Below the pieces are notes generated by a model. The model worked only from the letters and a program-made list of their open reading frames with translations. It was not told the DNA's origin and did no database searches. Shown here piece after piece: positions 1,605 through 18,723 of a stretch of 64,000 nucleotides of DNA. The position numbers and the translations under genes are program-made. The stretch spans positions 186,001 through 250,000 of the forward strand of contig NZ_AQYH01000005.1 in the NCBI RefSeq assembly GCF_000380505.1, written 5' to 3'. Source of the stretch: Kaistia granuli DSM 23481 (GTDB taxonomy: Bacteria > Pseudomonadota > Alphaproteobacteria > Rhizobiales > Kaistiaceae). Numbering within the stretch: position 1 is the stretch's first letter; every line of letters starts with the position of its first letter.

Positions 1605-1616
1605 GACGCGGGAGCG

Positions 1617-1931: not shown

Positions 1932-2115
1932 CGCAGATCCCCCGATATCGAACCTCCGCCTGCTCTAGCGCACCGCTTCCGGCTTGGCTACCGGCGCCGG
2001 CGAGCGATCGCGAGCAGATCACCTTTCGTTCATCCGGGTTGCTATGGCGGCGCATGGACGCCACGTCTGGCACGGGCTGGCGGGCACTTCGATGACAATC
2101 CGCCGGAGAACAGAA

Positions 2116-2391
2116 ATGAAGAAACTCACCCTGCTCCTGGCCCTATCGGGCCTTGTCCTGACTACCGGCTCGGCTCTCGCCGCAGACGTCTACAATGGTG
2201 TCGTCGCACGTGCCGATCCGATGACGGGTGAAGTGACGTTGCTGGGCGGCTCGACCTTCCAGGTCAGCGAGCCGGTCCTGCTGCACGGCCTGGCGCCGGG
2301 CGAGCACGTCATCGTCACGGTCAATGAGAATAACACCGTCGGAATTCAGGAAGACTCTTCCTATTCCGGCGCTGGTGACGGCGGGTACTAA
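2116..2391 (+). CDS. DUF1344 secreted small protein (copy 1)
   Basis: A 91-residue protein with a clear signal peptide (MKKLTLLLALSG, cleavage after ALA). The mature part is a short beta-rich domain with the DUF1344 pattern: DPMTGEVTLLGG, then VSEPVLLHGLAPGEHVIV, then an acidic/Ser-Gly tail. DUF1344 proteins are periplasmic or exported and of unknown function, common in Rhizobiales. A second copy with the same architecture lies beyond the antiporter gene at 4205. The start is the ATG preceding the signal peptide; longer frames upstream have no coding signature. Confidence 0.8.
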   Translation: MKKLTLLLALSGLVLTTGSALAADVYNGVVARADPMTGEVTLLGGSTFQVSEPVLLHGLAPGEHVIVTVNENNTVGIQEDSSYSGAGDGGY

Positions 2392-2604
2392 TCCTGTCCG
2401 CTCCCTTCATGGCCATCGCCTGTCTTGATAATCCTGGATCTCCCGGGACGGATGGTTCGTCCGCCCCGGGTTCGGTTTCTTTCCCCTCCCAGTAGAATTC
2501 GTTTGAATTCACCATCCAAAGCAGGAATGAGCGGTATTGTGCCGCGCCTGTCCTTGCCTGCCTCTGCGGCAGGGAAACGTCGCGTCCGTTCCGGGGGGAA
2601 TCAC

Positions 2605-4035: not shown

Positions 4036-4204
4036 GCGAGTGGCGGCCGAAGTTTGCCGTCCGGACGATGACGCAAGGCATGGCCATCATATGGCTGCCG
4101 GATGAAATTTTGTTCATGTTCGTCCCGACCGATTGCCGCGCCTCGGGCCGGGGCCATCTTTGCAAAAGGGATGGGGAAACCGATCGGATCAAGGAAACGA
4201 AGTC

Positions 4205-4480
4205 ATGAGCAAGCTCGCCTTCATTCTTCCCCTCGCCGGTCTTCTCGTCGGCGGTCCCGCCCTCGCGGCGGAAACAATCGGCGGTGTTGTGAGCCATGCC
4301 GATCCCGCCATGGGCACCATCACGATCGTCGGCAGTGGTACCTATCGGGTCAGCCAACCGCTCTTGCTCCGGAACCTCGCCCCCGGTGAGCATGTCATTA
4401 TCACCAAGAACGACAACGGCACGATCGGCCTTCAGGAAGACAGCAATTTCTCCGACGGCAGCGGCCAGAACGCTTACTAG
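4205..4480 (+). CDS. DUF1344 secreted small protein (copy 2)
   Basis: A 91-residue protein, exactly as long as the copy at 2116 and clearly its paralogue. It has a signal peptide (cleavage after ALA), then ADPAMGTITIVGSG, VSQPLLLRNLAPGEHVII and a QEDSNFSDGSG tail that match copy 1 position by position. It is followed at once by a strong terminator, so it likely forms its own short transcript or ends the antiporter transcript 169 nt upstream. Function is unknown; the family is exported. Confidence 0.82.
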   Translation: MSKLAFILPLAGLLVGGPALAAETIGGVVSHADPAMGTITIVGSGTYRVSQPLLLRNLAPGEHVIITKNDNGTIGLQEDSNFSDGSGQNAY

Positions 4481-4490
4481 GCGACAATCA

Positions 4491-4531
4491 AACGAAGAGG
4501 GCCGCCCAGTGGGGCGGCCCTCTTCGTTTTT
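4491..4531 (+). terminator. Strong rho-independent terminator
   Basis: A perfect 17-bp inverted repeat (4491-4507 with 4512-4528, 4-nt loop) ends in a T run. It closes the DUF1344 copy 2 transcript. The left arm is A-rich at its start, so it may also work in the reverse direction. Confidence 0.92.
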
Positions 4532-4709
4532 GTGCCGCCAGGCCTTGGCGGCCGTCACGGGGTCTTGACGGAACCGGAGTTCAATGCGGAACCTGTCGCC
4601 GCGAAGGGACGGGGGAGATGTCCGGTCGCGCGGCGCCGGCGAGGGTCCGGGGCGCGCGCATCGGTGGCGTTTCCTTTCCGTTCCGAAAAATCACAGGGAA
4701 TGGAACGCC

Positions 4710-5735
4710 ATGGCACTTGAAACACGTCCGCTCGGACGGACGGGGATCCCGGTCACCACGCTCGGCTTCGGCTCCGCGCCGCTCGGCGATCTCTATCACC
4801 GGCTCGACGACAAGGCGGCGCTCGGCGCCGTCGAGGCGGCAGTCGAGGCGGGCGTCACGCTCTACGACACCTCGCCCTTCTACGGCCACGGCCTGGCCGA
4901 GCACCGCATCGGCACCGTGCTGCGCCGTGTGCCGCGCAAATCCTATGTGCTGTCGACCAAGGTCGGCCGCTGGATGGACCCGCTGCATCAGCCGGCCGAC
5001 GGCAACACCCAGCCGCCGAATTTCGCCGGCGGCCTGCCGCATCCGGCCCGCCTCGATTACTCCTATGACGGCGCCATGCGCTCGCTGGAGCAGTCGCTGA
5101 TCCGCCTCGGCACCGACCGGATCGAGATCGTGCTGATCCACGATGTCGACGTCTATACCCATGGCAAGGACAAGGTCGAAGGCCACTTCAAGGCGGCGAT
5201 GGACGGCGTCTACAAGGCTCTGGAGAAGCTCCGCGCCGAGAAGGTGATCGACGCGATCGGCGTCGGCCTGAACGAGGCCGACATGTGCGAGCGCTTTGCC
5301 CGCGCCGGCGATTTCGACGCCATGCTGCTGGCCGGCCGCTATTCGCTTCTGGAGCAGCCGGCGCTCGACAGCTTCCTGCCGCTGGCGGTGGAGAAGGGCA
5401 TCGGCATGATGCTGGGCGGCGTGTTCAATTCCGGCATCCTCGCCACCGGCCCGGTCCCGGGCGCGAAATACAATTATCGGGATGCGCCGCCGGAGATCCT
5501 CGACCGCGTGGCGAAGATCCAGGCCGTCTGCGAAGCGCATGGCGTCTCGCTTGCCGACGCGGCGCTCCGCTTCCCGCTCGGTCATCCCGCCGTCGCCTCG
5601 CTGGTGATGGGCTCGGTCTCGGCTGACGAGACGAAGCGCAACCGCGCCGCCTTCGAGCGTCCGGTGCCGGTCTCGCTCTGGTCCGATCTGAAGACGGCCG
5701 GCCTGCTCCGCCCCGACGCGCCGACGCCGGCCTGA
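4710..5735 (+). CDS. Aldo/keto reductase, D-threo-aldose dehydrogenase type
   Basis: A 341-residue NAD(P)-dependent TIM-barrel oxidoreductase. The AKR landmarks are in order: LGFGSAPLGDL near the N terminus, YDTSPFYGHGLAE with the catalytic Asp and Tyr, STKVGR with the catalytic Lys, and VLIHDVD with the active-site His. The overall pattern is that of the D-threo-aldose 1-dehydrogenase/L-fucose dehydrogenase and pyridoxal dehydrogenase group, which oxidise a sugar or aldehyde in the cytoplasm. I chose the ATG at 4710, after a CAGGGAATGG purine stretch, because the protein then starts with the usual LGRTG motif. It stands alone with a terminator upstream and a GC-rich palindrome downstream. 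Confidence 0.85.
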   Translation: MALETRPLGRTGIPVTTLGFGSAPLGDLYHRLDDKAALGAVEAAVEAGVTLYDTSPFYGHGLAEHRIGTVLRRVPRKSYVLSTKVGRWMDPLHQPADGNTQPPNFAGGLPHPARLDYSYDGAMRSLEQSLIRLGTDRIEIVLIHDVDVYTHGKDKVEGHFKAAMDGVYKALEKLRAEKVIDAIGVGLNEADMCERFARAGDFDAMLLAGRYSLLEQPALDSFLPLAVEKGIGMMLGGVFNSGILATGPVPGAKYNYRDAPPEILDRVAKIQAVCEAHGVSLADAALRFPLGHPAVASLVMGSVSADETKRNRAAFERPVPVSLWSDLKTAGLLRPDAPTPA

Positions 5736-6468: not shown

Positions 6469-7116
6469 ACCGCGGCGTCCGTCCCGGGATCGAATCCCAC
6501 TCGGCCTCCGCCGCGCGAGGGAGATCTGTCGCTTTGCCCTCTTCGCCGCCAGCATCGGCTCGATGCTGGGAGCGCTCTTCGGAAGGCGCTCGGGCCGCTG
6601 CGGCCAGATCATCGTCGAGTCCTGGAGCCGAGGCTCCGCCTCGCCGGCCAGGGCTGGCGAAAACGACCGCACAGATCCGTCGTCGGGCGTGGGTCGCGCA
6701 AGAGTCGGCGCAGCGAAGGATGACAGCCGACGCGTCGCGTCAATCCGGCTCGCATGGCGAGGTCCTCGCAAGCGATGATCAGAACGGACCTAACCTATTC
6801 GTCGCTTCCTCGCGCTCAAGGCAATGTCGAGGCTTTTCGCGCGGTGTTGACACCTTCATAGCGCTCGCAGCTTTCGCGCTGCCGCCGAGGCGTGACGACC
6901 AAGACGGCGGGCCTTCCGGCCTTTCCTGTCGTGAGCCGCACCCGGGATGCGGGAGCCGCCACCGATGTCGTCGATCTTTGATGCCGGGCAAGTTGGAACT
7001 GCTTGGCTGAGCGATGTCGGCAAGGTCTTGTCAAGGTTTTCAAACTCCGATAGCAATTTGTTGAGTGCTAAACAACTCGGATAAACCCGAGGGTTTTGAG
7101 CCGCTACGGAGGACCC
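6469..7116. other. Intergenic stretch upstream of the uptake/kinase run
   Basis: About 650 nt with no supportable gene. Open frames exist but are Arg/Ser/Pro-rich, lack ribosome-binding sites and look like chance frames in GC-rich DNA. The last 110 nt are richer in A and T and hold a short CTCGG/CCGAG hairpin (about 7076-7095) before the ribosome-binding site of the next gene. This is the most likely place for the promoter and control sites of the run that starts at 7117. Confidence 0.5.
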
Positions 7117-7632
7117 ATGGCATTGGAAGAAGCGATCGCGCTGTTTCAGCGCGAGTGCGAGGCTATCTGGCTGAAACAGCCTGAAGAGATTCGTATTCTG
7201 TCGCGCGGCGAAGGCGTGCGCGGCGTGGGTTCGCGCGGGCAGTATCTGACCCCGCTGATCTTCGCCGAGGGCACGGCCCGGTCGCTCGCCGACGAGACCA
7301 TGTGGGTGGTTCGCCTGATGTGCGACCGTCCCGAAACCGATCTCGCCACGCTGAAGGTGGTCATTTCGGAGATGGTCGGCCGCAAGGCGGGCTTCTTCGA
7401 ACTGTTCGGTCTCGAACATGCCTCGGGTCTGGTCCGCACCTACATCGCCGAGGCGCAGGCCGTCGACAATCTCGACGATCTGCGGCGTCTGACGGATGCG
7501 GCGCTGGCCTATGCCAACCGCGTGCATGTGTGGCTGGACGCGGCCTTCCCCTGGGGGGTCTGCACCGGATTCATGCGTCCGGGTTACGGCACGCGCAATG
7601 CCGAGGGTCTGGAGCAGGGAGCCCGTTCATGA
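7117..7632 (+). CDS. Cucumopine-synthase-related helical-bundle protein
   Basis: A 171-residue, mostly helical cytoplasmic protein. The ATG follows an excellent ribosome-binding site (ACGGAGGA). I recognise the pattern RGQYLTPLIFAEGTARSL ... LKVVISEMVGRKAGFFELFG ... VHVWLDAAFPWGVC as that of the C-terminal helical bundle of cucumopine/mikimopine synthase, here encoded as a separate protein. The next gene, overlapping by 4 nt, encodes the cyclophilin-like partner domain, so the two together match the two halves of that enzyme. Known cucumopine-type synthases join L-histidine and 2-oxoglutarate. Whether this pair makes or breaks an opine-like bond is inference. It is probably the first gene of a long run leading into an ABC importer and a dihydroxyacetone kinase system. 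Confidence 0.68.
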   Translation: MALEEAIALFQRECEAIWLKQPEEIRILSRGEGVRGVGSRGQYLTPLIFAEGTARSLADETMWVVRLMCDRPETDLATLKVVISEMVGRKAGFFELFGLEHASGLVRTYIAEAQAVDNLDDLRRLTDAALAYANRVHVWLDAAFPWGVCTGFMRPGYGTRNAEGLEQGARS

Positions 7633-8051
7633 AACTGATCCTCAACATGGATGGCCGCGACACCTGCACCATCGAGATCTGGGAAGACCGCTATCCGGCG
7701 GTGGCCGAGGCGCTGCGCAAGGTTCTGCCGGTGACCAGCATCGCCCAGCACGGCAAGATCGTCGGCGATCTCCTGTATTTCTGCCTGCCGGTGCTGATGC
7801 CGAACGAGAAGCCGCTGACGCTGACGGAAATCTGCCGCCAGCGCCGCGCCGAGAAGGGGACCGCCGGCGGTTCCGTCTGCTTCTACGGTCCGCGCCAGCA
7901 GATCTGCATCTACTACGGCGACGATGTCTCGCCCGAGCCGTTCGAGCTGTCCTATTGCGGCGAGATCATCGAGGGCAACACCGAGATGGAACTCGCCGCC
8001 GTGAAGACCTGGACCAGCCCGGGTGTCCCGCTGACCCTGCGACTGGCTTGA
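7629..8051 (+). CDS. DUF3830 cyclophilin-like protein
   Basis: A 140-residue cytoplasmic protein of the DUF3830 family, whose solved member has a cyclophilin-like beta barrel. Visible family features are the start MKLILNMDGRDTCTIEIWED, the central VVG/LLYFCLPVL strand, GSVCFYGPRQQICIYYGDD and the C-terminal EIIEGNTEMEL. The same fold forms the N-terminal half of cucumopine synthase. The start codon overlaps the stop of the preceding helical-bundle gene (ATGA), a sign of coupled translation and of a two-subunit enzyme. A terminator-like hairpin follows, so this pair may be partly uncoupled from the importer genes downstream. The substrate is unknown. Confidence 0.75.
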   Translation: MKLILNMDGRDTCTIEIWEDRYPAVAEALRKVLPVTSIAQHGKIVGDLLYFCLPVLMPNEKPLTLTEICRQRRAEKGTAGGSVCFYGPRQQICIYYGDDVSPEPFELSYCGEIIEGNTEMELAAVKTWTSPGVPLTLRLA

Positions 8052-8058
8052 TCTGATC

Positions 8059-8089
8059 CCCGCGCGTCCGCAAGGCCGCGCGGGTTTTT
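8059..8089 (+). terminator. Rho-independent terminator or attenuating hairpin
   Basis: An 8-bp perfect GC stem (CCCGCGCG with CGCGCGGG) is followed by five T. It lies between the DUF3830 gene and the binding-protein gene on the same strand, so it may separate two transcripts or reduce read-through. Confidence 0.75.
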
Positions 8090-8124
8090 GCATAAGAAAC
8101 CATCCAGAAAAATCGGGAACCATC

Positions 8125-9273
8125 ATGAAACGTCGTATGAACTGGCTGGGTCGTGCCGGTCTCGCTTTGGTCGCCGCCGGCCTGCTGCAGGGCCTCGCCG
8201 CGCCGGCGCCGGCCTTGGCGCAATCGCAGGATTCCGTGACCTTCGGCTTCTTCGCGCCGCTGACCGGCCGCTTCGGCGCCAATGGCGAGCGCTTCAAGGA
8301 AGCCGTCAACCTGTTCGTCGAGCAGACCAACGCCGCCGGCGGCATCGGCGGCAAGCCGCTGGTCGTGCTGACCGAAGACGATCGCGGCGAGCCGATGCAG
8401 GCGACCGCCATCGCGCAGAAATTCTCCGAGAATCCCGCCGTCGTCGCGGCGATCGGCTCGTTCACCAGCGGCAACTCGATCGCCGCCGGCGAGATCTTCG
8501 CCGCCGCCGGCGTGCCGCAGGTCAGCCCGTCGTCGTCGCACCCCGACTACACCAAGATCTCCAAGTACCAGTTCCGTATCCCGAATACCCAGGACACGAT
8601 GTCCCTGAAGTATGTCTCGGCGCTGAAGGACAATGCCCCGCACAAGCGGGTCGCCATCATCTATTTCCAGGATGACTGGGGCATCTTCGTCGGCAACGCT
8701 ACCAAGGCGGCGCTGGAGAAGGACGGCTCGGAAGTGCCGGTGTTCGAGGCGATGCTTCCCGACGCTCGCGATTTCCGGCCGCTGGTGACGAAGCTGCGCC
8801 AGGCCAATGTCGACAGCATCCTGCTCGCCAGCCACTACGGCCCGTCGGCCACCTTCCTGCAGCAGCTGCGGCAGGCGGGCCTGGAGCAGACGGTTGTCGG
8901 CCCCGAGACGCTCTACAATCCCGAGCTGATCACGCTCGCCGGCGATGCCGCGAACGGCGTCATCACCACCACCTATTTCTTCCCGGGTGATCCGACGAAG
9001 GTCGCCTTCGTCGACGCGTACAAGGCCAAGTATGGCCGCGATCCCGACCTCTGGGCGGCCTATGCCTATGACGCGATCGCCATCGCGACCGCCGGAGCCA
9101 AGGCTCTGGCCGACGCCGGCAAGCCGGTCACCCGCGACGCCCTGCGCGACGCGATCGCCGACCTGCCGGCCTATGACGGCGTGACCGGCGTGACGAAGTT
9201 CGTCAACGGCACCCCCGCCAAGGATCTGACGATCCTGAAGATCAAGGACGGCGCCTACACGCTGCTTCAGTGA
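8125..9273 (+). CDS. ABC transporter substrate-binding protein, LivK type
   Basis: A 382-residue periplasmic binding protein of the branched-chain amino acid/amide family (type I fold). It has a Sec signal peptide (cleavage after PALAQ) and the family opening VTFGFFAPLTGRFGANGERFKEAVNLFVEQTNAAGGIGGKPL. The middle has FTSGNSIAAGEIFAAAGVPQVSPSSSHP, a typical ligand-pocket region with several Ser/Thr. No Cys is seen at the cleavage site, so it should be soluble. It supplies substrate to the permease and ATPases that follow. This family also takes up urea, amides, aromatic acids and other ligands, so leucine-type amino acids should not be assumed. Confidence 0.88.
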   Translation: MKRRMNWLGRAGLALVAAGLLQGLAAPAPALAQSQDSVTFGFFAPLTGRFGANGERFKEAVNLFVEQTNAAGGIGGKPLVVLTEDDRGEPMQATAIAQKFSENPAVVAAIGSFTSGNSIAAGEIFAAAGVPQVSPSSSHPDYTKISKYQFRIPNTQDTMSLKYVSALKDNAPHKRVAIIYFQDDWGIFVGNATKAALEKDGSEVPVFEAMLPDARDFRPLVTKLRQANVDSILLASHYGPSATFLQQLRQAGLEQTVVGPETLYNPELITLAGDAANGVITTTYFFPGDPTKVAFVDAYKAKYGRDPDLWAAYAYDAIAIATAGAKALADAGKPVTRDALRDAIADLPAYDGVTGVTKFVNGTPAKDLTILKIKDGAYTLLQ

Positions 9274-9295
9274 CGATCTCCCGGCCATGATTGCG

Positions 9296-9321
9296 CCGAG
9301 GGCCCGATAGCGGGTCCTCGG
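9296..9321 (+). promoter_or_regulatory. mRNA hairpin between binding protein and permease
   Basis: An 11-bp stem (CCGAGGGCCCG against CGGGTCCTCGG, one G-T, 4-nt loop) with no T run lies in the 82-nt gap after the binding-protein gene. Such hairpins often stabilise the upstream message, giving more binding protein than membrane subunits. That role here is inference. Confidence 0.5.
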
Positions 9322-9355
9322 CCGCCAGGCGGCGATCTTTCAAGGCTTACCCGAC

Positions 9356-11236
9356 ATGCTGGAACTCTTCCTGAGTCAGATCCTTAACGGGGTCGTGATC
9401 GGCTTCGTCTATGCCCTCATCGCACTTGGCTTCAGCCTCGTGTTCGGTGTGGCCAACATCATCAACTTCGCCCAGGGCGCGCTGTTGATGCTGGGAGCGT
9501 TCCTGACCTTCACCATGGTCAGGCTAGGTGCGCCCATCGCCGTGGCGATCCCGCTGGCGATTGCCATCACCACGGCCACCGGCATGTTGATCGAACGCCT
9601 GGCGCTGCGGCCGTTGCAGAACGCGCCCTATATCGCGCCGCTGCTGTCGACGCTGGCGATCGCCATCATCTTCGACGCTGCGGCCGAGATGATCTGGACG
9701 GCGGAGATCCAGTCCTTTCCGTCGCCGCTGTCGAAATATGTGGTGTTCGTCGGTTCCGCCTATCTGACCGGCGTCGACTTCCTGATCATCGCCGTGTCGC
9801 TTTCCGTCATGGCGGGACTGATGCTGTTCCTGTCGCGCAGCTGGATGGGCAAGGCCCTCCGCGCCACGGCGCAGGATCCCGAGGCGGCGACGCAGATGGG
9901 CATCAACGTGCCCCTGATGCGGCAGTTCTCGTTCGGACTCGCCGGCGCTCTCGGCGCGCTGGCCGGCGTGCTGATCGGCATGTACTACATGTCCGTCTTT
10001 CCGCAGATGGGCATCCCCTACGGCCTCAAGGGCTTCGCCGCGGCATTGCTGGGCGGCCTGTCGTCGATACCCGGCGCCATCGTCGGCGGCATTCTGCTCG
10101 GCATCTTCGAGAGCCTCGCCTCCGGCTATGTCGGTGAAGGCTGGCGCGACGTCATCGCCTTCAGCGTGCTGCTGCTGGTGCTGATCGTCCGTCCGCACGG
10201 CCTGTTCGGCAACAAGTCGCTCGACGCGCTGGGCGGCGCCTCGGGCGCCACGGGTGGCATTCCGACCACCTCGGTCGTCGCTTCGATGGCAGGCGCCACA
10301 GGGCGCACCAAGCAACGGCTGATCGAGGCGCCGTTGCTGGTCCTGCTCGGCGTCATCGCGCTGTTCGCGCTGCTCCCGGCGCTGGGCGGCTCCAACTATC
10401 TGCTCCAGGTCGGCACGCAGGCGGCGATCTATGCCGTGCTGGCGGTGTCGCTCACCCTGTTGACCGGCTCGGCCGGTATCATCTCGATCGGTCATGCCGC
10501 CTTCTTCGGCGTCGGCGCTTATGCGGCAGCCCTGGCAGGGCGCAACTGGGGGATCCCCGCCGAGGCAGCCTTCCTGCTGGCCGGTGTCGCGGCGGCGGTG
10601 TTCGCGGCGGTGCTCTACTGGCCGACGATCCGCCTGTCCGGCCACACGGTCGGCCTTGCGACGCTCGCCATCGGCCAGATCGTCTATCTCGTCTGCCTGA
10701 ACTGGGTGGATGTCACGCGCGGCCCGATGGGCATTCCCGGCGTGCAGCGGCCCTCGCTGCTGCTCGGCGGCATCGACATGAAGAGCCTGGCGGCGCAGTA
10801 CTGGCAGGCCCTGGTGGTCCTCGCCATCGCGGTCACGATCGCCTTCGCGATGCTCAACTCGCCGATCGGCCGCACCTGGCGCGCCATCCGGGAGGACCGG
10901 CTGGCCGCTCGCGCCTCCGGTGTTCCGGTTTCGCGCTATCTGACGCTGGTGTTCCTGGTGTCGGGCTTCCTGGCCGGACTGGCGGGCGCGCAGTTCGCCT
11001 TCCTGCAGAACTTCGTCAGTCCCGAGAGCTTCATGATCGACACGTCGATCGTGCTGATCTCGATGATCGTGCTGGGTGGTCTCGGCAACATCACCGGCGC
11101 GCTGGTGGGCGGCGTCCTGCTGGCCTTGCTGCCAGAGGTCCTGCGCGAGTTCGCGCAGTATCGAATGCTCGCCTATGGCGCGATTCTTCTCCTTCTTCTG
11201 CGCTTCCGTCCGCAGGGACTGGCAGGGACCCGATGA
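9356..11236 (+). CDS. Fused LivH-LivM ABC permease
   Basis: A 626-residue inner-membrane protein joining both permease subunits of a branched-chain-type importer. Residues 1-290 match LivH (LNGVVIGFVYALIALGFSLVFGVANIINFAQG; the ATPase-contact EAA-like loop near GKALRATAQDPEAATQMGI). A hydrophilic linker follows at about 290-320. Residues 320-626 match LivM (LLTGSAGIISIGHAAFFGVGAYAAAL; contact loop GRTWRAIREDRLAARASGV). About 16-18 membrane helices are expected. It overlaps the first ATPase gene by 4 nt. In most bacteria the two halves are separate genes; the fusion fixes their ratio at one to one. Confidence 0.9.
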   Translation: MLELFLSQILNGVVIGFVYALIALGFSLVFGVANIINFAQGALLMLGAFLTFTMVRLGAPIAVAIPLAIAITTATGMLIERLALRPLQNAPYIAPLLSTLAIAIIFDAAAEMIWTAEIQSFPSPLSKYVVFVGSAYLTGVDFLIIAVSLSVMAGLMLFLSRSWMGKALRATAQDPEAATQMGINVPLMRQFSFGLAGALGALAGVLIGMYYMSVFPQMGIPYGLKGFAAALLGGLSSIPGAIVGGILLGIFESLASGYVGEGWRDVIAFSVLLLVLIVRPHGLFGNKSLDALGGASGATGGIPTTSVVASMAGATGRTKQRLIEAPLLVLLGVIALFALLPALGGSNYLLQVGTQAAIYAVLAVSLTLLTGSAGIISIGHAAFFGVGAYAAALAGRNWGIPAEAAFLLAGVAAAVFAAVLYWPTIRLSGHTVGLATLAIGQIVYLVCLNWVDVTRGPMGIPGVQRPSLLLGGIDMKSLAAQYWQALVVLAIAVTIAFAMLNSPIGRTWRAIREDRLAARASGVPVSRYLTLVFLVSGFLAGLAGAQFAFLQNFVSPESFMIDTSIVLISMIVLGGLGNITGALVGGVLLALLPEVLREFAQYRMLAYGAILLLLLRFRPQGLAGTR

Positions 11237-12099
11237 GCATGAGCACCCCAAACTCCGCCGCGCTCGTCATCGACAAGGTCAATCGTCGCTTCGGCGGTGT
11301 CGTGGCCGCCAATGCGTTGGATTTCACCATTCGCCAGGGCGAATTCCTCGCGGTGGTGGGGCCCAATGGCGCCGGCAAATCCACGCTGTTGCAGATGATC
11401 AGCGGCGTCATCCGCCCGCAGGAAGGCGAAATTCGCCTGGGCGGCCGGCGCATCGACCGGCTGACACCCGAGGCGATCAACGCGCTCGGCATCTCGCGCA
11501 CCTTCCAGACGAGCCGCGTGTTCCCGATGCTGACCATCCGCGACAGCATCCTGGTCGGCACCCAGGTTGGCCTGATCGGAGGCGGGCGCAGCCCGCGCCG
11601 CTACGGACCGGTCGGCGAACTCGTCTCGGCGCTGTTCCGGTTGCCCGGCTATCGCGCCAGCGCTGCCGCGGCCGAAGCCCGCGCGGAAGAGGTGATGAAG
11701 ATGTTCGGCGACCGGCTGTGGCCGCGCCGGAACGACCAGGCATTCTCGCTGTCCTACGCCAACCGGCGCCGGCTCGAGATTGCCCGCGCGCTGGTCCAGG
11801 ATCCCGACATCCTGCTCCTGGACGAGCCCGCCGCCGGCATGAACCCCAGCGAGACCGACGAGCTGACCGAGATCATCGCGGAGCTGCGCCGCAGCCGGCC
11901 GTCGATGACGATCGTCATGGTCGAGCACAAACTGCAGGTCGTTCGCCAACTGGCGGAACGCTGCATCGTCATGTCCCAGGGCACGGTGATCGTCGACGAT
12001 ACGCCGGCCGGAGCTCTGGAGGATCCGCGGGTGATCGAGGCCTATCTGGGCACGAAGCGCTCGGCTGCCGCCTTTGGAAAGGTGAACGACGATGGCTGA
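11233..12099 (+). CDS. ABC transporter ATPase, LivG type
   Basis: A 288-residue ATP-binding subunit. Walker A is GPNGAGKST, the signature region is LSYANRRRLEIARAL (with SYAN in place of the usual SGGQ-type start, common in LivG-like proteins) and Walker B is ILLLDEPAAGMN, followed by the H-loop MVEHKL. The insertion between Walker A and the signature is long, as in LivG. The start overlaps the permease stop (ATGA) and the end overlaps the next ATPase gene by 8 nt, so all subunits are co-translated. It powers uptake from the cytoplasmic side. Confidence 0.9.
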   Translation: MSMSTPNSAALVIDKVNRRFGGVVAANALDFTIRQGEFLAVVGPNGAGKSTLLQMISGVIRPQEGEIRLGGRRIDRLTPEAINALGISRTFQTSRVFPMLTIRDSILVGTQVGLIGGGRSPRRYGPVGELVSALFRLPGYRASAAAAEARAEEVMKMFGDRLWPRRNDQAFSLSYANRRRLEIARALVQDPDILLLDEPAAGMNPSETDELTEIIAELRRSRPSMTIVMVEHKLQVVRQLAERCIVMSQGTVIVDDTPAGALEDPRVIEAYLGTKRSAAAFGKVNDDG

Positions 12100-12829
12100 G
12101 GCACCCAAGTCGGCACCGCTGGTGTCGTTGACGGATATCGATGTGTTCTACGGTCCGGTGCAGGCGCTGTTCGGCGTCAATGTCTCCGTCATGCCCGGCG
12201 AGACGGTCGTCGTTCTCGGCGGCAACGCGTCGGGCAAGTCGACGACGGTCAAGACCGTGCTGGGGCTGGTCAAGGTCGCGCGCGGCGATGTCACCTTCGA
12301 GGGGCAGCGCGTGAACGGCACGCCCGCCTACCAGATGATCGCGCGCGGTCTCGGCTCGATCCCCGAGGGACGGCGGATGTTTTCCGAGATGACCGTCCTG
12401 GATAATCTCAAGCTCGGGGCCTATGTCCGCCGCGGCGAACCCAAGGCCGAGATGGACGCCCAGATCGAAGAGGCGCTGGCCATGTTCCCGAGGCTCGCCG
12501 AGCGACGCAACCAGATATCCGGCACAATGTCCGGCGGTGAGCAGCAGATGCTGGCCATGGCGCGCGCATGGATGCGCAAGCCGAAGCTGCTCTGCATCGA
12601 CGAGCCGTCGATGGGACTGTCGCCGCTTTTCGTCGATCAGGTCTACGACATCCTGGCGAAGTGGAAGGCCCTCGGCCTGACGATCCTGATGGTCGAGCAG
12701 AACGCCAACATGGCGCTGTCGATCGCCGATCGGGGCTATGTGCTCAAGCAGGGCCACGTCTCGGTGACCGGGACGGCTGCCGAGCTTCGGGACAATGACG
12801 ACGTTCGTCGCGCCTATCTTGGAGGATAA
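12092..12829 (+). CDS. ABC transporter ATPase, LivF type
   Basis: A 245-residue ATP-binding subunit, the LivF partner of the preceding LivG. Walker A is GGNASGKST (Ala where most LivF have Gly, still fitting GxxxxGKS), the signature is MSGGEQQMLAMARA and Walker B is LLCIDEPSMGLSP. The LivF-type ending (GYVLKQGHVSVTGTAAEL, then RRAYLGG) is intact. Its last codons form the GGAGG ribosome-binding site of dhaL, which starts 4 nt later. This spacing links the importer and the kinase genes in one transcript. Confidence 0.9.
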   Translation: MAEAPKSAPLVSLTDIDVFYGPVQALFGVNVSVMPGETVVVLGGNASGKSTTVKTVLGLVKVARGDVTFEGQRVNGTPAYQMIARGLGSIPEGRRMFSEMTVLDNLKLGAYVRRGEPKAEMDAQIEEALAMFPRLAERRNQISGTMSGGEQQMLAMARAWMRKPKLLCIDEPSMGLSPLFVDQVYDILAKWKALGLTILMVEQNANMALSIADRGYVLKQGHVSVTGTAAELRDNDDVRRAYLGG

Positions 12830-12833
12830 GGGC

Positions 12834-13445
12834 ATGCAGATCGACTCGGCCTTGCGCCGGCGGTTGATTGAGGAGATGGCCGCCACGGTCGAGGCGCATT
12901 GTCAGGAGCTGACGGAGCTGGACCAGGCCATCGGCGATGGCGACCACGGCACCGGCATGAAGCGCGGCTTCGATGCGGTGCTGGCCCATGCCGACAAGCT
13001 GGCGGACCAGCCGCTGCCGGCGGCCCTGCGCGGTATCGGCCAGACGCTCGTGATGTCGATGGGCGGCGCCTCCGGCCCGCTCTATGGCACCTTCTTCCTG
13101 GAGTTGGGCAAGGCGCTGGACGAGAACCCCGACCGGGCGGCTTTCGCGGCCGGTTTCGCCCGAGCCATGGCCGCGGTCGCCGCGCGCGGCAAGTCCGAGC
13201 CAGGACAGAAGACTCTGCTCGATGTGTTGGCGCCGGTTTCAGCCGCGCTGGCGGAGAATGAGACGCCTGCGGGCATTGCACGCGTCGCCGCCGAGGCTGC
13301 CGAAGCCACTGTGCCGATGCAGGCGCTGCGTGGGCGGGCCGCTTTCCTGGGTGCCCGCTCGGTGGGACATATGGATCCCGGCGCACGCTCGGCCTCGTTG
13401 ATCATCGGTGCCGTCTGTGCCGTGCTGGAAGGAACATCTGGATGA
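12834..13445 (+). CDS. dhaL: Dihydroxyacetone kinase ADP-binding subunit DhaL
   Basis: A 203-residue cytoplasmic subunit that holds ADP and passes phosphate to the ketose bound on DhaK. The nucleotide/Mg site is complete: Asp30, Asp35 and Asp37 in LTELDQAIGDGDHG. Further family blocks are SMGGASGPLYGTFF and GARSVGHMDPGARS. A longer frame begins at 12795 inside livF, but the ATG at 12834 has a perfect GGAGG 8 nt upstream and gives the usual N terminus. It overlaps dhaM by 4 nt. In PTS-type systems the ADP on DhaL is re-phosphorylated by DhaM, which is encoded next. Confidence 0.9.
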   Translation: MQIDSALRRRLIEEMAATVEAHCQELTELDQAIGDGDHGTGMKRGFDAVLAHADKLADQPLPAALRGIGQTLVMSMGGASGPLYGTFFLELGKALDENPDRAAFAAGFARAMAAVAARGKSEPGQKTLLDVLAPVSAALAENETPAGIARVAAEAAEATVPMQALRGRAAFLGARSVGHMDPGARSASLIIGAVCAVLEGTSG

Positions 13446-13828
13446 ACGTCGGAATCGTGATCGTCTCGCATTCGCCCAAGGTGGCGGAGGGCGCCGCCGA
13501 CATGGTGCGCCAGATGGTGGGGGACAGCGTGCCGCTCGCCTATACGGGTGGCGACGAGGCAGGGGGCCTGGGAACCAGCGTGGCGCGCATCCTGGATGCG
13601 ATCAACGCCGCGTGGAGCGAGGCGGGAGTCGCCGTGCTGGTCGATCTCGGCGGCGCCGAGACCAACAGCGAGATGGCCATCGAGATGCTGCCGCCGGAAC
13701 GCCGGGAGCGTGCGGTGATCTGCAACGCGCCCATCGTCGAGGGCGCCGTCATCGCCGCAGCGGAAGCCTCGGGCGGATCGTCGCTGGCGAAGGTTCAGGC
13801 CGTCGCCGACGAGCTGTCGTCGCAATAA
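13442..13828 (+). CDS. dhaM: PTS-dependent dihydroxyacetone kinase phosphotransferase DhaM
   Basis: A 128-residue EIIA domain of the mannose-type fold. His10 in VSHSPKVAEG is the phosphorylation site, followed by GGLGTSVARI and VLVDLGGAETNSEMAIE. It carries phosphate from HPr to the ADP on DhaL. Only the EIIA domain is present; the E. coli protein also carries HPr and Enzyme I-like domains, which here are the two separate genes that follow. The start overlaps the dhaL stop (ATGA). Confidence 0.9.
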   Translation: MNVGIVIVSHSPKVAEGAADMVRQMVGDSVPLAYTGGDEAGGLGTSVARILDAINAAWSEAGVAVLVDLGGAETNSEMAIEMLPPERRERAVICNAPIVEGAVIAAAEASGGSSLAKVQAVADELSSQ

Positions 13829-13838
13829 GGGATTCCCG

Positions 13839-14153
13839 ATGTCGCAGGAACATGTCGTCGCTTCGGCCATCCTCACCAACGAATCGGGCATGCACGCCCG
13901 GCCTTCCGTCAAGCTGACGCAGCTGGCCAAGTCCTTCCCGGCGGCGATCGAGGTTGCGACCGACGAAGCCGGCCCGTGGGTGGACGCCAAGAGCCCGGTG
14001 AAGCTCATGCGATTTCGCGCGCCGCAGGGCACGCGGCTCTGGATGCGCGCCTCCGGCGAGGGGGCGCAGCAGGCGCTCGACGAAATGATGTCGCTGGTCT
14101 CCCGTAACTTCGACGAGGCTGGCCCGGCGCCGGATGGCGGCGGTCATGGCTGA
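13839..14153 (+). CDS. HPr phosphocarrier protein
   Basis: A 104-residue HPr. The phosphorylated His19 lies in ESGMHARPSVKLTQLAKSF, and Ser52 (AKSPVKLM) sits where HPr proteins have the regulatory serine region. The C terminus is about 15 residues longer than a minimal HPr and ends in Gly-rich sequence. It receives phosphate from the Enzyme I encoded next and hands it to DhaM. It lies in the dha run and not beside the nitrogen-PTS gene ptsN at 49267, so it looks dedicated to this kinase. It ends inside the start region of the Enzyme I gene. Confidence 0.9.
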   Translation: MSQEHVVASAILTNESGMHARPSVKLTQLAKSFPAAIEVATDEAGPWVDAKSPVKLMRFRAPQGTRLWMRASGEGAQQALDEMMSLVSRNFDEAGPAPDGGGHG

Positions 14154-15777
14154 GCGGCTGCTCGTCGGGGTCGCGGCGTCGCCGGGACTGGTCTCGGGTC
14201 GCCTGTGGCGCCCCGAGTCCGAGGCCGCCTCGCAGGCCGATCCTGCCGCGTCCACCGGGGATGACGAGGCGGCATTGCATGGCGCCATCGCTTCGGCGGG
14301 GCAGGCGCTGGCGGCGCTGCTGGGGGAACTCGACGGCGACGAGGCCGAGGTGGTCGGCATGCAGATCGCCTTTCTCGAGGATGACGAGCTGGCCCGTCCG
14401 GCCTTTGAGGCGATTGCCGCAGGCCAACCGGCCGGCGCGGCCTGGGCGGCAGCCATGGATGCCGAGATCGCCGCCTATCAGGCCTCGGACGACGAGTATT
14501 TTCGCGCCCGCGCCGTCGATTTCCAGGATATCCGCGATCGTGTCCTGGCGGAGCTGTCCGGCGGGGCGAGCGGGCCGCTGGTGGTGCCCGACCACGCGAT
14601 CCTGCTGGCGGCCGAACTGCGCCCGTCCGAGTTCCTGTCGGCCCGCTGGGGCGCTGGCGCGGGACTTGCGCTGGCGCAGGGCAGCCCGACCAGCCATGTC
14701 GCCATGCTGGCGCGCGGCCGAGGGCTTGCCATGGTGGTCGGACTGGGCCCCGAGGTGCTGGATCTCCACGGCGAGGCGCTTCTCGACGGCGCCGAAGGAA
14801 CGCTGGTTGTCGCGCCGGAGCAAGGTCGATTGGCAGCGGCCGGCGCCCGTATCGCTTCGGAAGAAGCCGGCCGGGCGCAGGCGGCGGTCTATGCCGCGCG
14901 GCCGGCGCTCAGCCGTGACGGTGTGCGGGTCGCCGTGCAGGCGACCATCGCGGATCCGTCAGACCTCGACGGTCTGGATCCGGCCCATTTCGATGGCATC
15001 GGCCTGGTACGGACCGAATTGTTCCTCGATCGCCCGGAGCGGTTGACGGACGAGGAGGGGCAGCTAGCCGCCTATGCGCGGATCCTCGCCTGGGCCGGCG
15101 GGCGGCCGGTGACGGTTCGCACGCTCGATGCCGGCGGCGACAAGCCTATCGCGGGCTACACGCCGGCGCATGAAGCCAATCCGTTTCTGGGCATGCGCGG
15201 GATCCGTCTGTCGCTGCGCCATCCCGACGTGTTCCGCGTCCAGCTGCGCGCGCTGGCCCGCGCCGCGGCGACCGGGCCGCTCAAGGTGATGCTGCCGATG
15301 GTGACGCTGCCGCGCGAACTCGCGGATGCCCGCGCCCTGCTCGAAGCCGAGATCGCGGCATTGGCCGCGGCCGGCGTCGCGCATGGCCGTCCCGCGCTCG
15401 GCATCATGGTTGAGGTTCCGGCCGTCGCCATCACCCCCGAACGGTTCGACGCCGAATTCTTCTCGATCGGATCGAATGATCTGGTGCAGTATACCTGCGC
15501 CGTCAGCCGCGAGGAGGCCGCGTCGGCGGAGCTCGGTTCTGTGGCGGATCCTTCGGTTTTGGCACTGATCGCCCGCGTGGCGGCGCATGGCCGGCAGGTC
15601 GGGCGCGAAGTCAGCCTGTGCGGCGACGCCGGCGGCGATCCGGCCTTGGTGCCGGCGTTGCTGACGGCCGGCCTGCGGTCGCTCTCGGTCCAGCCCGGAT
15701 TGGCCGGTGCGGTCAAGGCGGTGATCGCCGGGCTCGATCTGGCTTCGACCGATGAACCGAGCACCCCGCCGTCATGA
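14146..15777 (+). CDS. PTS Enzyme I (PEP-protein phosphotransferase)
   Basis: A 543-residue Enzyme I that starts the phosphate chain from PEP. It lacks the N-terminal GAF domain of the nitrogen enzyme PtsP. The phospho-His184 lies in GSPTSHVAMLARGRGLAMVVG. The C-terminal PEP-binding barrel shows VRTLDAGGDKP, NPFLGMRGIRLSL, GIMVEVPAVA and FFSIGSNDLVQYT, all intact. Two start codons are possible (14134 and 14146); I prefer the ATG at 14146, which overlaps the HPr stop closely. Its own stop overlaps the next gene by 4 nt. With HPr and DhaM it forms a complete chain to DhaL. Confidence 0.9.
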   Translation: MAERLLVGVAASPGLVSGRLWRPESEAASQADPAASTGDDEAALHGAIASAGQALAALLGELDGDEAEVVGMQIAFLEDDELARPAFEAIAAGQPAGAAWAAAMDAEIAAYQASDDEYFRARAVDFQDIRDRVLAELSGGASGPLVVPDHAILLAAELRPSEFLSARWGAGAGLALAQGSPTSHVAMLARGRGLAMVVGLGPEVLDLHGEALLDGAEGTLVVAPEQGRLAAAGARIASEEAGRAQAAVYAARPALSRDGVRVAVQATIADPSDLDGLDPAHFDGIGLVRTELFLDRPERLTDEEGQLAAYARILAWAGGRPVTVRTLDAGGDKPIAGYTPAHEANPFLGMRGIRLSLRHPDVFRVQLRALARAAATGPLKVMLPMVTLPRELADARALLEAEIAALAAAGVAHGRPALGIMVEVPAVAITPERFDAEFFSIGSNDLVQYTCAVSREEAASAELGSVADPSVLALIARVAAHGRQVGREVSLCGDAGGDPALVPALLTAGLRSLSVQPGLAGAVKAVIAGLDLASTDEPSTPPS

Positions 15778-16181
15778 CGACATCCCGCGTTCCCAAGCCC
15801 GTCCGGAATTACAAGGAGCTGCTGCGCAGCGTCCTGGACAACCGGCCCTCGGGTACGCGGCAAAGGCTGGCGGTGGCGCTGGGCACGAACCGATCCTTCG
15901 TGTCGCAGATCAGCAGTCCCAGCTACCGGGTGGCCATCCCCACCCATCACATCGATACGATCCTCGAAGTCTGCCATTTCTCGCCAGCCGAGAAGGCCGA
16001 GTTCCTGGCCGCCTATGATGTCGCTCATCCCAACCAGCGGCAGCAATCCGACAACAGCCCCGGCCATCGGACGATCCAGATGACCGTGCCGGATCTGGGC
16101 AATGCGAGGGCCAATCGTCTGATGGACGAGGCGCTGCACGACATGGTCCGCAACATCATCCGCATCCTGCAAGAAAAGTGA
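15774..16181 (+). CDS. Small HTH protein within the dha run
   Basis: A 135-residue protein. Residues 12-50 (YKELLRSVLDNRPSGTRQRLAVALGTNRSFVSQISSP) read as a Cro/XRE-like helix-turn-helix, with RLAVALGTNRSFVSQI as the recognition unit. The C-terminal 25 residues (ANRLMDEALHDMVRNIIRIL) form an amphipathic helix. It has no ligand domain that I recognise. It starts in a 4-nt overlap with the Enzyme I gene and precedes dhaK by 24 nt, so it is an integral member of the run and probably its regulator. That role is inferred from position and the HTH only. Confidence 0.7.
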   Translation: MTTSRVPKPVRNYKELLRSVLDNRPSGTRQRLAVALGTNRSFVSQISSPSYRVAIPTHHIDTILEVCHFSPAEKAEFLAAYDVAHPNQRQQSDNSPGHRTIQMTVPDLGNARANRLMDEALHDMVRNIIRILQEK

Positions 16182-16205
16182 CCCGCATTCAGGGGGAGGA
16201 AGTCC

Positions 16206-17189
16206 ATGAAGAAACTGATCAACAGCGTGGCCGATGTGCTGGACGAAAGCCTGGACGGTTTCGCCGCCGCCCATGCCGATCTGATCGAGATGGATGGCGA
16301 GCGACGCTTCCTGCGCCGCCGCGCGGCGGCCTCCGGCAAGGTGGCGCTGATTTCCGGCGGCGGCTCCGGCCACGAGCCCCTGCATGCGGGTTTCGTCGGA
16401 CTGGGCATGCTGGACGCGGCCGTGCCGGGCGCGATCTTCACCTCGCCGACGCCGGACCGCATCCTGGCCGCGATCGAGGCGGTCGGCTCCGATGCCGGCG
16501 CCCTTCTGATCGTCAAGAACTATGAAGGCGACGTGATGAACTTCGAGATGGCGGCGGAGATGGCCTCCGGGCCGGTCGCGCGCGTTCTCGTCAATGACGA
16601 CGTCGCGGTCGACAACTCGGCCTACACCATTGGTCGGCGCGGCGTGGCGGGAACGCTGGTGGTCGAGAAGATCCTCGGCGCCGCCGCCGAGCAGGGGATG
16701 GATCTGGCCGAGCTGGTCGCGCTCGGCGAGCGGGTCAACGCCGCGACGCGCTCCATGGGCGTGGCGCTGAGCTCCTGCACGGTGCCGGCCGCGGGCAAGC
16801 CGACCTTCGAGCTGGCCGAAGACGAGATCGAGATTGGTGTCGGCATCCATGGCGAACCGGGCCGCCGGCGCGCGCCGATGGCGCCGGCCGATGCGATCGT
16901 GAACGAACTGCTGGACGCGATCCTCGCCGATCTGCGCCCGGCCGCCGGATCGCGCTGCCTGCTGTTCGTCAACGGTTTCGGCGGCACGCCGTCGAGCGAA
17001 CTTTACGTCGTGTACAACGCGGCCCAACGCCGTCTTGAGGCCGAGGGGCTGGACGTCGCGCGCAGCCTGGTCGGCACCTATGTGACGTCGCTGGAAATGG
17101 CCGGTTGTTCGCTGACCGTGACCGTTCTGGACGATGATCTGGCGGCGTTGTGGGACGCGCCGGTGCGGACCCCGGCCTTGCGCTGGTAG
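16206..17189 (+). CDS. dhaK: Dihydroxyacetone kinase substrate-binding subunit DhaK
   Basis: A 327-residue subunit that binds the ketose covalently. His215 in EIGVGIHGEPG is the residue that forms a hemiaminal with the substrate carbonyl. Other family blocks are LISGGGSGHEPLHAGFVG, TSPTPDRILAAI, IVKNYEGDVMNFEMAAE and NGFGGTPSSELYVVY. The ribosome-binding site is GGGGGAGGAAG. It completes a DhaKLM kinase using PEP as phosphate donor. Related kinases also act on tetruloses such as erythrulose, so dihydroxyacetone is the likely but not certain substrate. An SDR remnant continues in the same frame after its stop. Confidence 0.9.
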   Translation: MKKLINSVADVLDESLDGFAAAHADLIEMDGERRFLRRRAAASGKVALISGGGSGHEPLHAGFVGLGMLDAAVPGAIFTSPTPDRILAAIEAVGSDAGALLIVKNYEGDVMNFEMAAEMASGPVARVLVNDDVAVDNSAYTIGRRGVAGTLVVEKILGAAAEQGMDLAELVALGERVNAATRSMGVALSSCTVPAAGKPTFELAEDEIEIGVGIHGEPGRRRAPMAPADAIVNELLDAILADLRPAAGSRCLLFVNGFGGTPSSELYVVYNAAQRRLEAEGLDVARSLVGTYVTSLEMAGCSLTVTVLDDDLAALWDAPVRTPALRW

Positions 17190-17210
17190 AGCCACGCGCG
17201 AATATGGCCG

Positions 17211-17414
17211 ATTGCGCAGGAGATCCGCGTCGTCTCGGTCTCGCCGGGGCGGGTCGACACGGAATTCGTCAAGGGGCTCGACCAAGAATGGCGCGATCGG
17301 CAGGCGGCGCAGACGCCACTCGGGCGGGTTTCTGCGCCTGAGGACGTTGCCTCGCTCCTGCCGTTCGCGATCGGATCGGTCATTCCGATCGATTGCGGGA
17401 GGCCTTTGGGCTAG
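17211..17414 (+). pseudogene. 3' remnant of a short-chain dehydrogenase gene
   Basis: The frame following the dhaK stop translates to an SDR C-terminal part: AQEIRVVSVSPGRVDTEFVKG, then WRDRQAAQTPLGRVSAPEDVASLL, then GSVIPIDCGRPLG and a stop. The N-terminal cofactor fold and the catalytic Ser/Tyr/Lys region are absent, and about 15 residues seem lost between EDVASLL and the final strand. There is no start codon or ribosome-binding site. It is a leftover of a once complete dehydrogenase gene, cut off at the end of dhaK. Confidence 0.75.
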
Positions 17415-17577
17415 CGCATGGCCAGGTCGTGGCTGGGATGTTCTCCGGCAGCCTTTCGATCACCACATGGCTCGCTGACCATCGCTGAGCGATTTGGCCG
17501 AGTTACGCCCGGCATGATTGCCATCCGTTCGCAGCCGGTCAGGCTTTGAGCGCGGGGTGCATTCATAGGCCTCGCTA

Positions 17578-18723
17578 TCAAGGCGACTCGAGATTTTTGA
17601 GCAGGCTCTCGAACGTCGTCAGGGGGGCATCCGACGATAGGCTATTCGCATCGGATTGTGCCTCCAGGCGCAGTGGCAGTCGGCGTACGCCGCTGGGGCT
17701 GTAGCCGAATCGCTGTGTGAAGGCGCGGCTGAAATTGGCGGCCGAGTCGAAGCCGAAGGTCTCGGCCACGTCGGCGATCTTCCGTGTTTCCGAGAGGTCC
17801 GCCAGCATGGTGTGTGCGGCGAGCAGGCGCCGCTCCCGTATGTATTTCAGAACGCCGCCGGAACTCTCGAACAACTCATATAGACGCGTGCGTGAAATCG
17901 CCAGTTCCCGGCTGAGGGTGTCCGGAGTCAGATTCTCGGAAGCCAGATGGCTCTGGATGAATCGCCGCGCTCTTGTCATGAGTCCGACATACGAAGCCTG
18001 ATCCGTCTCGCAACCTGTTCCCACCAGATAGGAGACTGTGTCGAAAACCACCTCCAGCAGGCTGCTCCTCACGCTGGAGAGGTCATCATGGGTCAGCCGA
18101 TCGAGGCCTCCCTCGACGCTCGTCACGAAATCCACCAGCAGCCTGGAGTGCTGGCCGCCCAGGACCACGTGATGGCTGGCCTCCGGCAGGCCGCCGCGCG
18201 GCGCGAAGCGGTCGACGGGCGCGATCAGCGTGACCGATTCAGCCGCAGTGGCGCGCCCGCGGAACGGCTGGCCGAGCGATCGGATTTCGACCGTTCCTGG
18301 ACGACCCTCCGCCACGCGATCATCGACGGCGGTCCAGCTTTGACCCGAACGGAGAATGGTGAGTTGCCAATGGTCGATCGGGCTGAACCGGACCTGCTCG
18401 CGCGACCGCTCATAGCTGAACGCCGGAGCGGATTGCTGCACCAGCAGGATGCCACCGAGATTCCAGACGGCCTGACGGACCCGAAAACCTTGCTCGGCGC
18501 CGACGCCGGGCGGTAGGCGCACGTCCAGCAGCGGCGCCAGATATGTCTGCCAGGCACGAAACTGCTGATCCGCCGCGAGATGATCGGTGGCAAAGCGATG
18601 CGGGACGAGAGCAGCCGATTGGCTTGGTTCTTCCCCGAGCGGGATCAGCGGTACGCGCGGCAGGCGTCGGCGCTCGATAAATTCGGTCTGCTGGTCGATA
18701 TCCTTGGAATCGTCGGCCGCCAC
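17578..18723 (-). CDS. AraC-family regulator with N-terminal RxxxR motif (CuxR-like candidate)
   Basis: About 381 residues from a GTG at 18723 (AGGGG upstream); a TTG at 18780 would add 19. The C-terminal 100 residues form the AraC double HTH: LSRELAISRTRLYELFESSGG, then IADVAETFGFDSAANFSRAFTQRFGYSPSGVRR. The middle is a cupin-like AraC ligand-binding domain. Just before it stands IERRRLPRVPL, which holds RxxxR (Arg19 and Arg23 from the GTG). Sinorhizobium meliloti CuxR, an AraC-type activator of a related polysaccharide cluster, binds cyclic di-GMP through an N-terminal RxxxR plus a cupin domain. The gene lies near the end of that kind of cluster here, so a c-di-GMP-responsive activator is a reasonable inference. 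Without alignment it remains a candidate. Confidence 0.75.
   Translation of the reverse strand: MAADDSKDIDQQTEFIERRRLPRVPLIPLGEEPSQSAALVPHRFATDHLAADQQFRAWQTYLAPLLDVRLPPGVGAEQGFRVRQAVWNLGGILLVQQSAPAFSYERSREQVRFSPIDHWQLTILRSGQSWTAVDDRVAEGRPGTVEIRSLGQPFRGRATAAESVTLIAPVDRFAPRGGLPEASHHVVLGGQHSRLLVDFVTSVEGGLDRLTHDDLSSVRSSLLEVVFDTVSYLVGTGCETDQASYVGLMTRARRFIQSHLASENLTPDTLSRELAISRTRLYELFESSGGVLKYIRERRLLAAHTMLADLSETRKIADVAETFGFDSAANFSRAFTQRFGYSPSGVRRLPLRLEAQSDANSLSSDAPLTTFESLLKNLESP

Follow-up and report, generated by a model that had tools for sequence, protein, structure and literature searches.

A split Pictet-Spenglerase-like gene pair joined to a Liv-type importer and a dihydroxyacetone kinase run in Kaistia granuli

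Genes of the cassette and the fold of its first pair

We analyzed a 64,000-nucleotide stretch of Kaistia granuli DSM 23481 (contig NZ_AQYH01000005.1, positions 186,001 to 250,000), here called the window, in which an original prediction had placed a run of twelve plus-strand genes. In the open reading frame (ORF) list of the window, we found all twelve in the predicted order, with LivH and LivM as one fused gene; together with a conserved upstream segment they make up a cassette that spans 7004-17202, and all of its features lie on the plus strand. The first two genes encode CucC (7117..7632, 171 amino acids) and Cyclo (7629..8051, 140 amino acids, with conserved His41 and Glu103). They are followed by a terminator-like hairpin (8058..8090), recognized by sequence inspection and comparison with Kaistia adipata, and by an ATP-binding cassette (ABC) importer that consists of a LivK-type solute-binding protein (8125..9273; PF13458, Peripla_BP_6, 207.5 bits), a fused LivH-LivM permease of 626 amino acids in a single gene (9356..11236; PF02653, 314.8 bits over two stretches) and two ABC ATPases, named LivG (11233..12099) and LivF (12092..12829) by position and similarity. 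Judged by its matches, the importer appears to be of the same transporter type as the Liv branched-chain importer while scoring below the curated NCBIfam cut-offs of that family (LivK 141.7 versus 477 bits for NF011933, LivH 194.6 versus 379 and LivM 182.9 versus 366 bits).

The remaining six genes form a dha run: DhaL (12834..13445; TIGR02365, 197.9 bits versus a cut-off of 138.3), the EIIA-type DhaM (13442..13828; TIGR02364, 137.4 versus 98.25), HPr (13839..14153; TIGR01003, 54.4 versus 47.9), Enzyme I (14134..15777; three Pfam domains over cut-off, TIGR01417 under it at 316.1 versus 341.7), a small helix-turn-helix (HTH)-like protein of 135 amino acids without a family match (15774..16181) and DhaK (16206..17189; TIGR02363, 476 versus 406.25). 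DhaK, DhaL and DhaM are thus all above their curated cut-offs, as their predicted identity called for. We take IVSHSP in DhaM, GMHARPS in HPr, GSPTSH in Enzyme I and GIHGEPG in DhaK to be the phosphotransfer and kinase motifs of these proteins, and because they are intact no gene of the dha run looks broken. Genes overlap by 4 nt at 7629, 4 at 11233, 8 at 12092, 4 at 13442, 20 at 14134 and 4 at 15774, and are otherwise parted by gaps of 73 nt (8052-8124), 82 nt (9274-9355), 10 nt and 24 nt. For DhaL, whose ORF begins at 12795, inspection favours the ATG at 12834, 4 nt past LivF, as the start.

CucC matches the family Cucumopine_C (PF18631) at 102.8 bits (cut-off 27), and a profile built from five relatives matches McbB (3x27, E = 3.5e-17), 9uwa and KslB (9ns6, 9k0a). 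The AlphaFold model of CucC (predicted local distance difference test score, pLDDT, 87.6) has McbB as its top fold match (TMq 0.79), and every one of the 17 fold matches at E ≤0.001 is McbB or KslB. The Cyclo model (pLDDT 94.6) matches the atypical cyclophilin TM1367 as well as KslB and McbB (TMq 0.66-0.80), and it is also near the AF2241 and 3kop proteins. Pfam matches of Cyclo are weak and below cut-off (Cyclophil_like2 21.6, DUF3830 20.3 and Cyclophil_like 18.9 bits); of the prediction that this protein is a DUF3830 cyclophilin-like one, the cyclophilin-like fold stands and the DUF3830 assignment stays below its cut-off. His41 is present in 48 of 48 alignment rows, and Glu103, which aligns with a glutamate of McbB, is kept in 46 of them, the other two being gapped. 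We take that McbB glutamate to be the catalytic E97, the numbering presuming an offset of 21.

In the excerpted text of their sources, McbB and KslB are Pictet-Spenglerases, KslB having tryptophan and 2-oxoglutarate as substrates (PMC12513458) and McbB coupling tryptophan with oxaloacetaldehyde (PMC7024544). The cassette pair resembles these enzymes of beta-carboline biosynthesis in both domains, by sequence and by predicted fold, and keeps the aligned Glu and His. The domain order is cyclophilin-helical in McbB and helical-cyclophilin in KslB, and the cassette genes follow the KslB order; the earlier description of the cucumopine-synthase type was right that both folds share one chain and wrong to make them two N-terminal folds, as either order occurs. 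McbB and KslB are single-chain and biosynthetic, whereas the cassette pair keeps company with an importer and a kinase and is encoded by two overlapping genes, because of which we file it as a split relative rather than as a single-chain enzyme. Judged from family matches and models, CucC/Cyclo is nearly certain to be a split form of the McbB/KslB/cucumopine-synthase Pictet-Spenglerase fold, in agreement with the opine-synthase-like pair first proposed. Since the two genes overlap, are adjacent and are fused in relatives, we infer that CucC and Cyclo meet to form one two-subunit enzyme.

Conservation of the cassette and of its parts

The case for the cassette as one unit is strong. CucC is 96% and Cyclo 99% identical to the proteins of K. 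adipata DSM 17808 (G394). When we compared the first 27 kb of the window by blastn with the two K. adipata loci (L024 and L033, about 20 kb each and from one genome), we found a single block of 10.2 kb, 7004/7019-17202, that is 88% identical, and no similarity to these loci outside it. Because the same block has unrelated flanks in K. adipata, the cassette behaves as one unit. A search for near-identical cassette DNA on plasmids returned 14 records, each covering at most 5% of the cassette. The block takes in the upstream segment (7004..7116), presumably promoter or operator, whose last ~85 nt are nearly identical in the two species. An imperfect palindrome, TTGTT...AACAA at 7058-7080, lies in this segment and is a possible operator, and an Rfam search at the 5' end of the cassette gave chance-level matches only. 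Further 5' in the window (351-5735) are genes for a flavin adenine dinucleotide (FAD)-dependent DAO oxidoreductase, an amino-acid permease and an aldo/keto reductase, which are not common to K. adipata.

The hairpin near 8059 is real and has a T run; it is kept in K. adipata, where it is stronger (–31.2 kcal/mol), and it is found without the T run in a third genome, G505. The original prediction had allowed that a terminator here might fully separate the pair from the importer; the hairpin is borne out, but it has not separated the genes in evolution. Strong LivHM matches occur in 9 genomes among 199 relatives. The pair is present in the 3 of these with a close LivHM (the window genome, K. adipata and G505), and the 6 with LivHM at 40-43% identity gave no CucC match; the link between pair and importer is therefore not accidental, in line with the original prediction.

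We found DhaM in 53 of the 199 relatives, and from these 53 genomes we fetched 20 dha loci of our own choice. The order DhaL-DhaM-HPr-Enzyme I-HTH-DhaK is identical in all 20 of these Hyphomicrobiales runs, with the small HTH-like protein in the same place each time, and it is the order of the cassette. At 17 of the 20 loci, a sugar-type ABC importer precedes the dha run on the same strand; its five genes are all present at 16 of these and one locus is cut by a contig end, and at three of the 17 one or two other genes intervene. In the cassette, by contrast, CucC-Cyclo-LivK-LivHM-LivG-LivF occupies the usual place of that importer, and because 17 of the 20 runs follow a different ABC importer, the cassette gives the impression of a swapped importer and not of genes that met by chance. 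A second copy of DhaK stands between importer and dha run at two of the other loci (L129:10888-12477, with a DhaL-like stretch, and L130:7560-8486).

Split pairs, kinases and opine-type regions elsewhere

PF18631 is rare, with matches in 4 of 385 genomes of the class, 2 of them above cut-off, and the window CucC was matched in 10 of the 199 relatives. Of 397 genomes searched in the order, 10 had a match to a split-family profile; none of these was a new split pair with dha genes (G675 and G765 are the genomes of loci L034 and L061, and G713 and G773 hold distant relatives). Viral contigs gave no match to CucC, and plasmid searches with the window CucC and with the K. defluvii Cyclo gave none either. 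Searching GTDB genomes with the Cyclo alignment, we obtained 35 loci in Pseudomonadota and Actinomycetota, 37 with the window and G505 included. Among the 37, histidine utilization (hut) genes H, U, I, F or G are found at 7, DhaK at 5, GlnT at 21 and GlnT together with a Rieske oxygenase at 20; we set the bit-score thresholds ourselves and several loci span little sequence (7.9 kb at the least), so that these counts are lower bounds. Counted in the same way, oxoprolinase was found at 0 of the 37 loci, as expected if the carbonyl half of the substrate is not 2-oxoglutarate. In the tree, the window, K. adipata, G505 and L034 are set apart from the other 33 rows by the deepest branch (100/100), where long branches meet, and a PAAT-type permease is nearby in 30 of those 33.

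At the GlnT-type loci (L039, L041, L043, L045, L047-L053, L055, L056, L058-L064 and L066; for example L051:10459-20372), a glutamine-synthetase-like GlnT adjoins the split pair, and the names of several hosts mark them as bark-beetle or deadwood isolates. Most add the Rieske oxygenase, a luciferase-like monooxygenase, an aldo/keto reductase and a short-chain dehydrogenase, and further an FAD protein, an alpha/beta hydrolase, TetR and a PAAT importer. In Rouxiella/Serratia, a GlpD-like oxidoreductase, a DeoC-type aldolase and an FGGY sugar kinase lie 5' of the pair (L051:5097-9261, L052:5091-9254, L055:1598-5776), and a different FGGY kinase is near the pair in Sodalis sp. (L038). In a Bauldia metagenome-assembled genome (MAG), a second, very distant CucC/Cyclo-like pair lies on the opposite strand beside a typical one (L057:11216-12338, also L026:9892-11014).

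A dihydroxyacetone kinase is also found next to pairs of a second, distant clade: K. defluvii, Devosia sp. 66-14 and the Hyphomicrobiales MAG bin_288 each have a fused DhaK-DhaL adjoining HutC and the pair. These loci share with the cassette a split pair, an importer and a dihydroxyacetone kinase; they differ in that the importer is PAAT-type, the kinase is the fused form, HutC and hut genes are present and the pair is ~42-47% identical to that of the cassette. The HutC, HutF, HutI, HutH, HutU and HutG of K. defluvii are all above the NCBIfam equivalog cut-offs. Four genomes (those of the window, K. adipata, K. defluvii and Devosia sp. 66-14) have no Dak1 other than the copy at the pair. Across 21 searched genomes, our choice among the 37 loci, Dak1 lies in the pair locus in 5 against 0.13 expected (Poisson P = 3e-7); once the two Kaistia copies of one cassette are counted as one, the figure is 4 of 20 (P = 1e-5). 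For all 37 the expectation is 0.22 if the 16 unsearched genomes are given the mean copy number.

Relatives in which both domains form a single chain were found in G493 and G056. One has HutC and HutH as neighbours; the other has HutC and HutG, and in its vicinity are also a split pair, HutH, HutU and oxoprolinase. Proteins on 13 Agrobacterium/Rhizobium plasmids share 59-69% identity with these fused proteins; among the plasmids are NZ_CP019703, which the excerpted source gives as the cucumopine Ri plasmid pRi2659 (PMC8554961), and pTiAg57, in its excerpted source of octopine/cucumopine type (PMC10745273). On pTiAg57, the 25 kb around the relative hold hutC, F, I, H, U and G, importers and oxoprolinase-like subunits. 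A split pair with an importer and oxoprolinase is carried by the mikimopine plasmid pRi1724, and one with hutH, an importer and oxoprolinase by a Sodalis plasmid; a Paraburkholderia plasmid carries a fused protein in the company of hutHUIFG and oxoprolinase-like subunits. Cucumopine is the Pictet-Spengler product of histidine and 2-oxoglutarate and forms a lactam. A reverse reaction that frees histidine for Hut, with oxoprolinase taking the lactam, fits the opine loci. The cucumopine region was reportedly assigned in a 2022 paper by Hooykaas et al. (Plasmid 121:102629). The catabolic regions of pTiAg57, pRi2659 and pRi1724 thus resemble the cassette in that distant fused or split relatives of the pair adjoin ABC importers. 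In contrast, these cucumopine/mikimopine-type regions have oxoprolinase subunits, with hut genes on pTiAg57, and no DhaK in the fetched stretches, and the cassette has its kinase where the opine loci have oxoprolinase and hut genes.

A catabolic reading of the cassette and its alternatives

Building on the Pictet-Spenglerase fold and on opine catabolism, we propose that the cassette is catabolic and that an adduct of an amine with a ketose or triose is imported, cleaved by the pair in reverse and its ketose captured by DhaKLM, a reading to which we give an even chance. The cargo of LivK-LivHM-LivG-LivF would be a Pictet-Spengler-type adduct, with an arylethylamine-like amine or amino acid on one side and a short ketose or triose on the other. 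Its ring would be opened by CucC and Cyclo running in reverse, through arene protonation, C-C cleavage to an iminium and hydrolysis. DhaKLM would phosphorylate the carbonyl half, which may be dihydroxyacetone, glyceraldehyde or a C4 ketulose, with phosphate from phosphoenolpyruvate arriving through the cassette's own Enzyme I and HPr. From its context the pair is likely to be degradative, a reverse Pictet-Spenglerase, and that the ketose or triose half passes to DhaKLM has about even chances or a little better. With slightly more doubt than belief, we also suggest that this is 'sugar opine' catabolism, in which a two-subunit retro-Pictet-Spenglerase acts on external amine-ketose or amine-triose adducts and the C3/C4 ketose is trapped by a phosphoenolpyruvate-driven kinase with an Enzyme I and HPr of its own, so that an otherwise synthetic reaction is drawn backwards.

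Several observations weigh against the catabolic reading. No split pair anywhere has a known activity, and 21 of the 37 pairs sit in a GlnT-bearing cluster without a kinase or hut link. The short contig of L034 (G675) has a pair of the same clade without importer or dha genes, and G505 has such a pair with the same importer (LivHM 82%) and no dha genes. The pair is in none of the 20 fetched dha runs, and because a conserved hairpin with a T run stands between pair and importer, these may differ in expression level. Three other pair-bearing genomes with a single Dak1 (G583, G584 and G587) have it elsewhere, and the DhaK link, strong when counted by loci, is weak when counted as two gains, one for each clade (P about 0.008). 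No hut gene was found in the fetched stretches near the Sinorhizobium medicae split pair or the Rhodococcus fused protein (L069, L071). The window genome and K. adipata have only a sub-cut-off paralogue of HutH (182.8 and 184.4 versus 539 bits), and their best HutI scores are below cut-off as well (36.4 and 38.1 versus 298 bits).

The G505 locus, the 20 dha runs and the hairpin 3' of the pair would also be accounted for by two independent operons joined by chance in a Kaistia ancestor, the pair and Liv importer serving an amine compound and the dha run serving dihydroxyacetone made elsewhere. We consider this rather unlikely, given that the block is whole in K. adipata despite other flanks, that DhaL starts 4 nt past LivF and that the fused DhaK-DhaL adjoins the distant clade of pairs. 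On the same evidence, the claim that a run usually lacking the pair marks an accident stands only in part: the fetched runs and G505 speak for it and the look of an importer swap against it. Alternatively, the pair may run forwards, joining an imported amine to a ketose or aldehyde in an adduct that serves detoxification or signalling, with DhaKLM draining excess ketose. McbB and KslB are indeed synthases in the excerpts cited (PMC12513458, PMC7024544), but the family scans of the cassette show no exporter or tailoring gene, and the importer, the kinase and the hut neighbours at other loci are degradative, which makes this alternative improbable. That the pair cuts another bond with a borrowed fold (for example in a hydantoin, lactam or aminal), the carbonyl still going to DhaK, draws on the nearness of Cyclo to TM1367, AF2241 and 3kop, whose functions the structure titles do not tell, and is very doubtful in view of the two McbB/KslB fold halves found together and the conserved aligned glutamate.

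Taken together, these data partly support the original interpretation. Its remark that no pathway of this composition is described needs qualifying, since relatives of the pair sit in opine-catabolic regions of Agrobacterium plasmids. In the open-access papers searched, among which most subscription papers are missing, we found no mention of DUF3830 and no Pictet-Spenglerase together with a cyclophilin-like protein; retro-Pictet-Spengler together with enzyme appeared only in a chemistry review, and, judged by the listing, none of the 5 papers that combine two of dihydroxyacetone kinase, histidine utilization, opine and Pictet-Spengler was relevant. If the catabolic reading is true, an uncharacterised two-gene module of Pseudomonadota and Actinomycetota gains a job, the McbB/KslB fold is used in degradation, natural amine-sugar adducts are a class worth seeking, and the breakdown of cucumopine and mikimopine has a testable route.

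We also considered histidine as the amine half. The hut linkage of pairs favours it, and for the sister clade that has hut genes it is the most likely amine. There are no hut genes at the cassette locus, and HutH and HutI are below cut-off in both the window genome and K. adipata, so that the histidine reading does not extend to these two genomes. Histidine is thus unlikely as the amine in the window's species, where the amine half probably does not enter the Hut route. The HutU relative of the window genome scores as a thiourocanate hydratase (1037.9 versus 930 bits). It lies on another contig (C16, L142:7136-8740), with a HutH-like lyase far below cut-off ~8 kb off (16878-18326), and by its sequence matches this region looks like one for ergothioneine-type breakdown.

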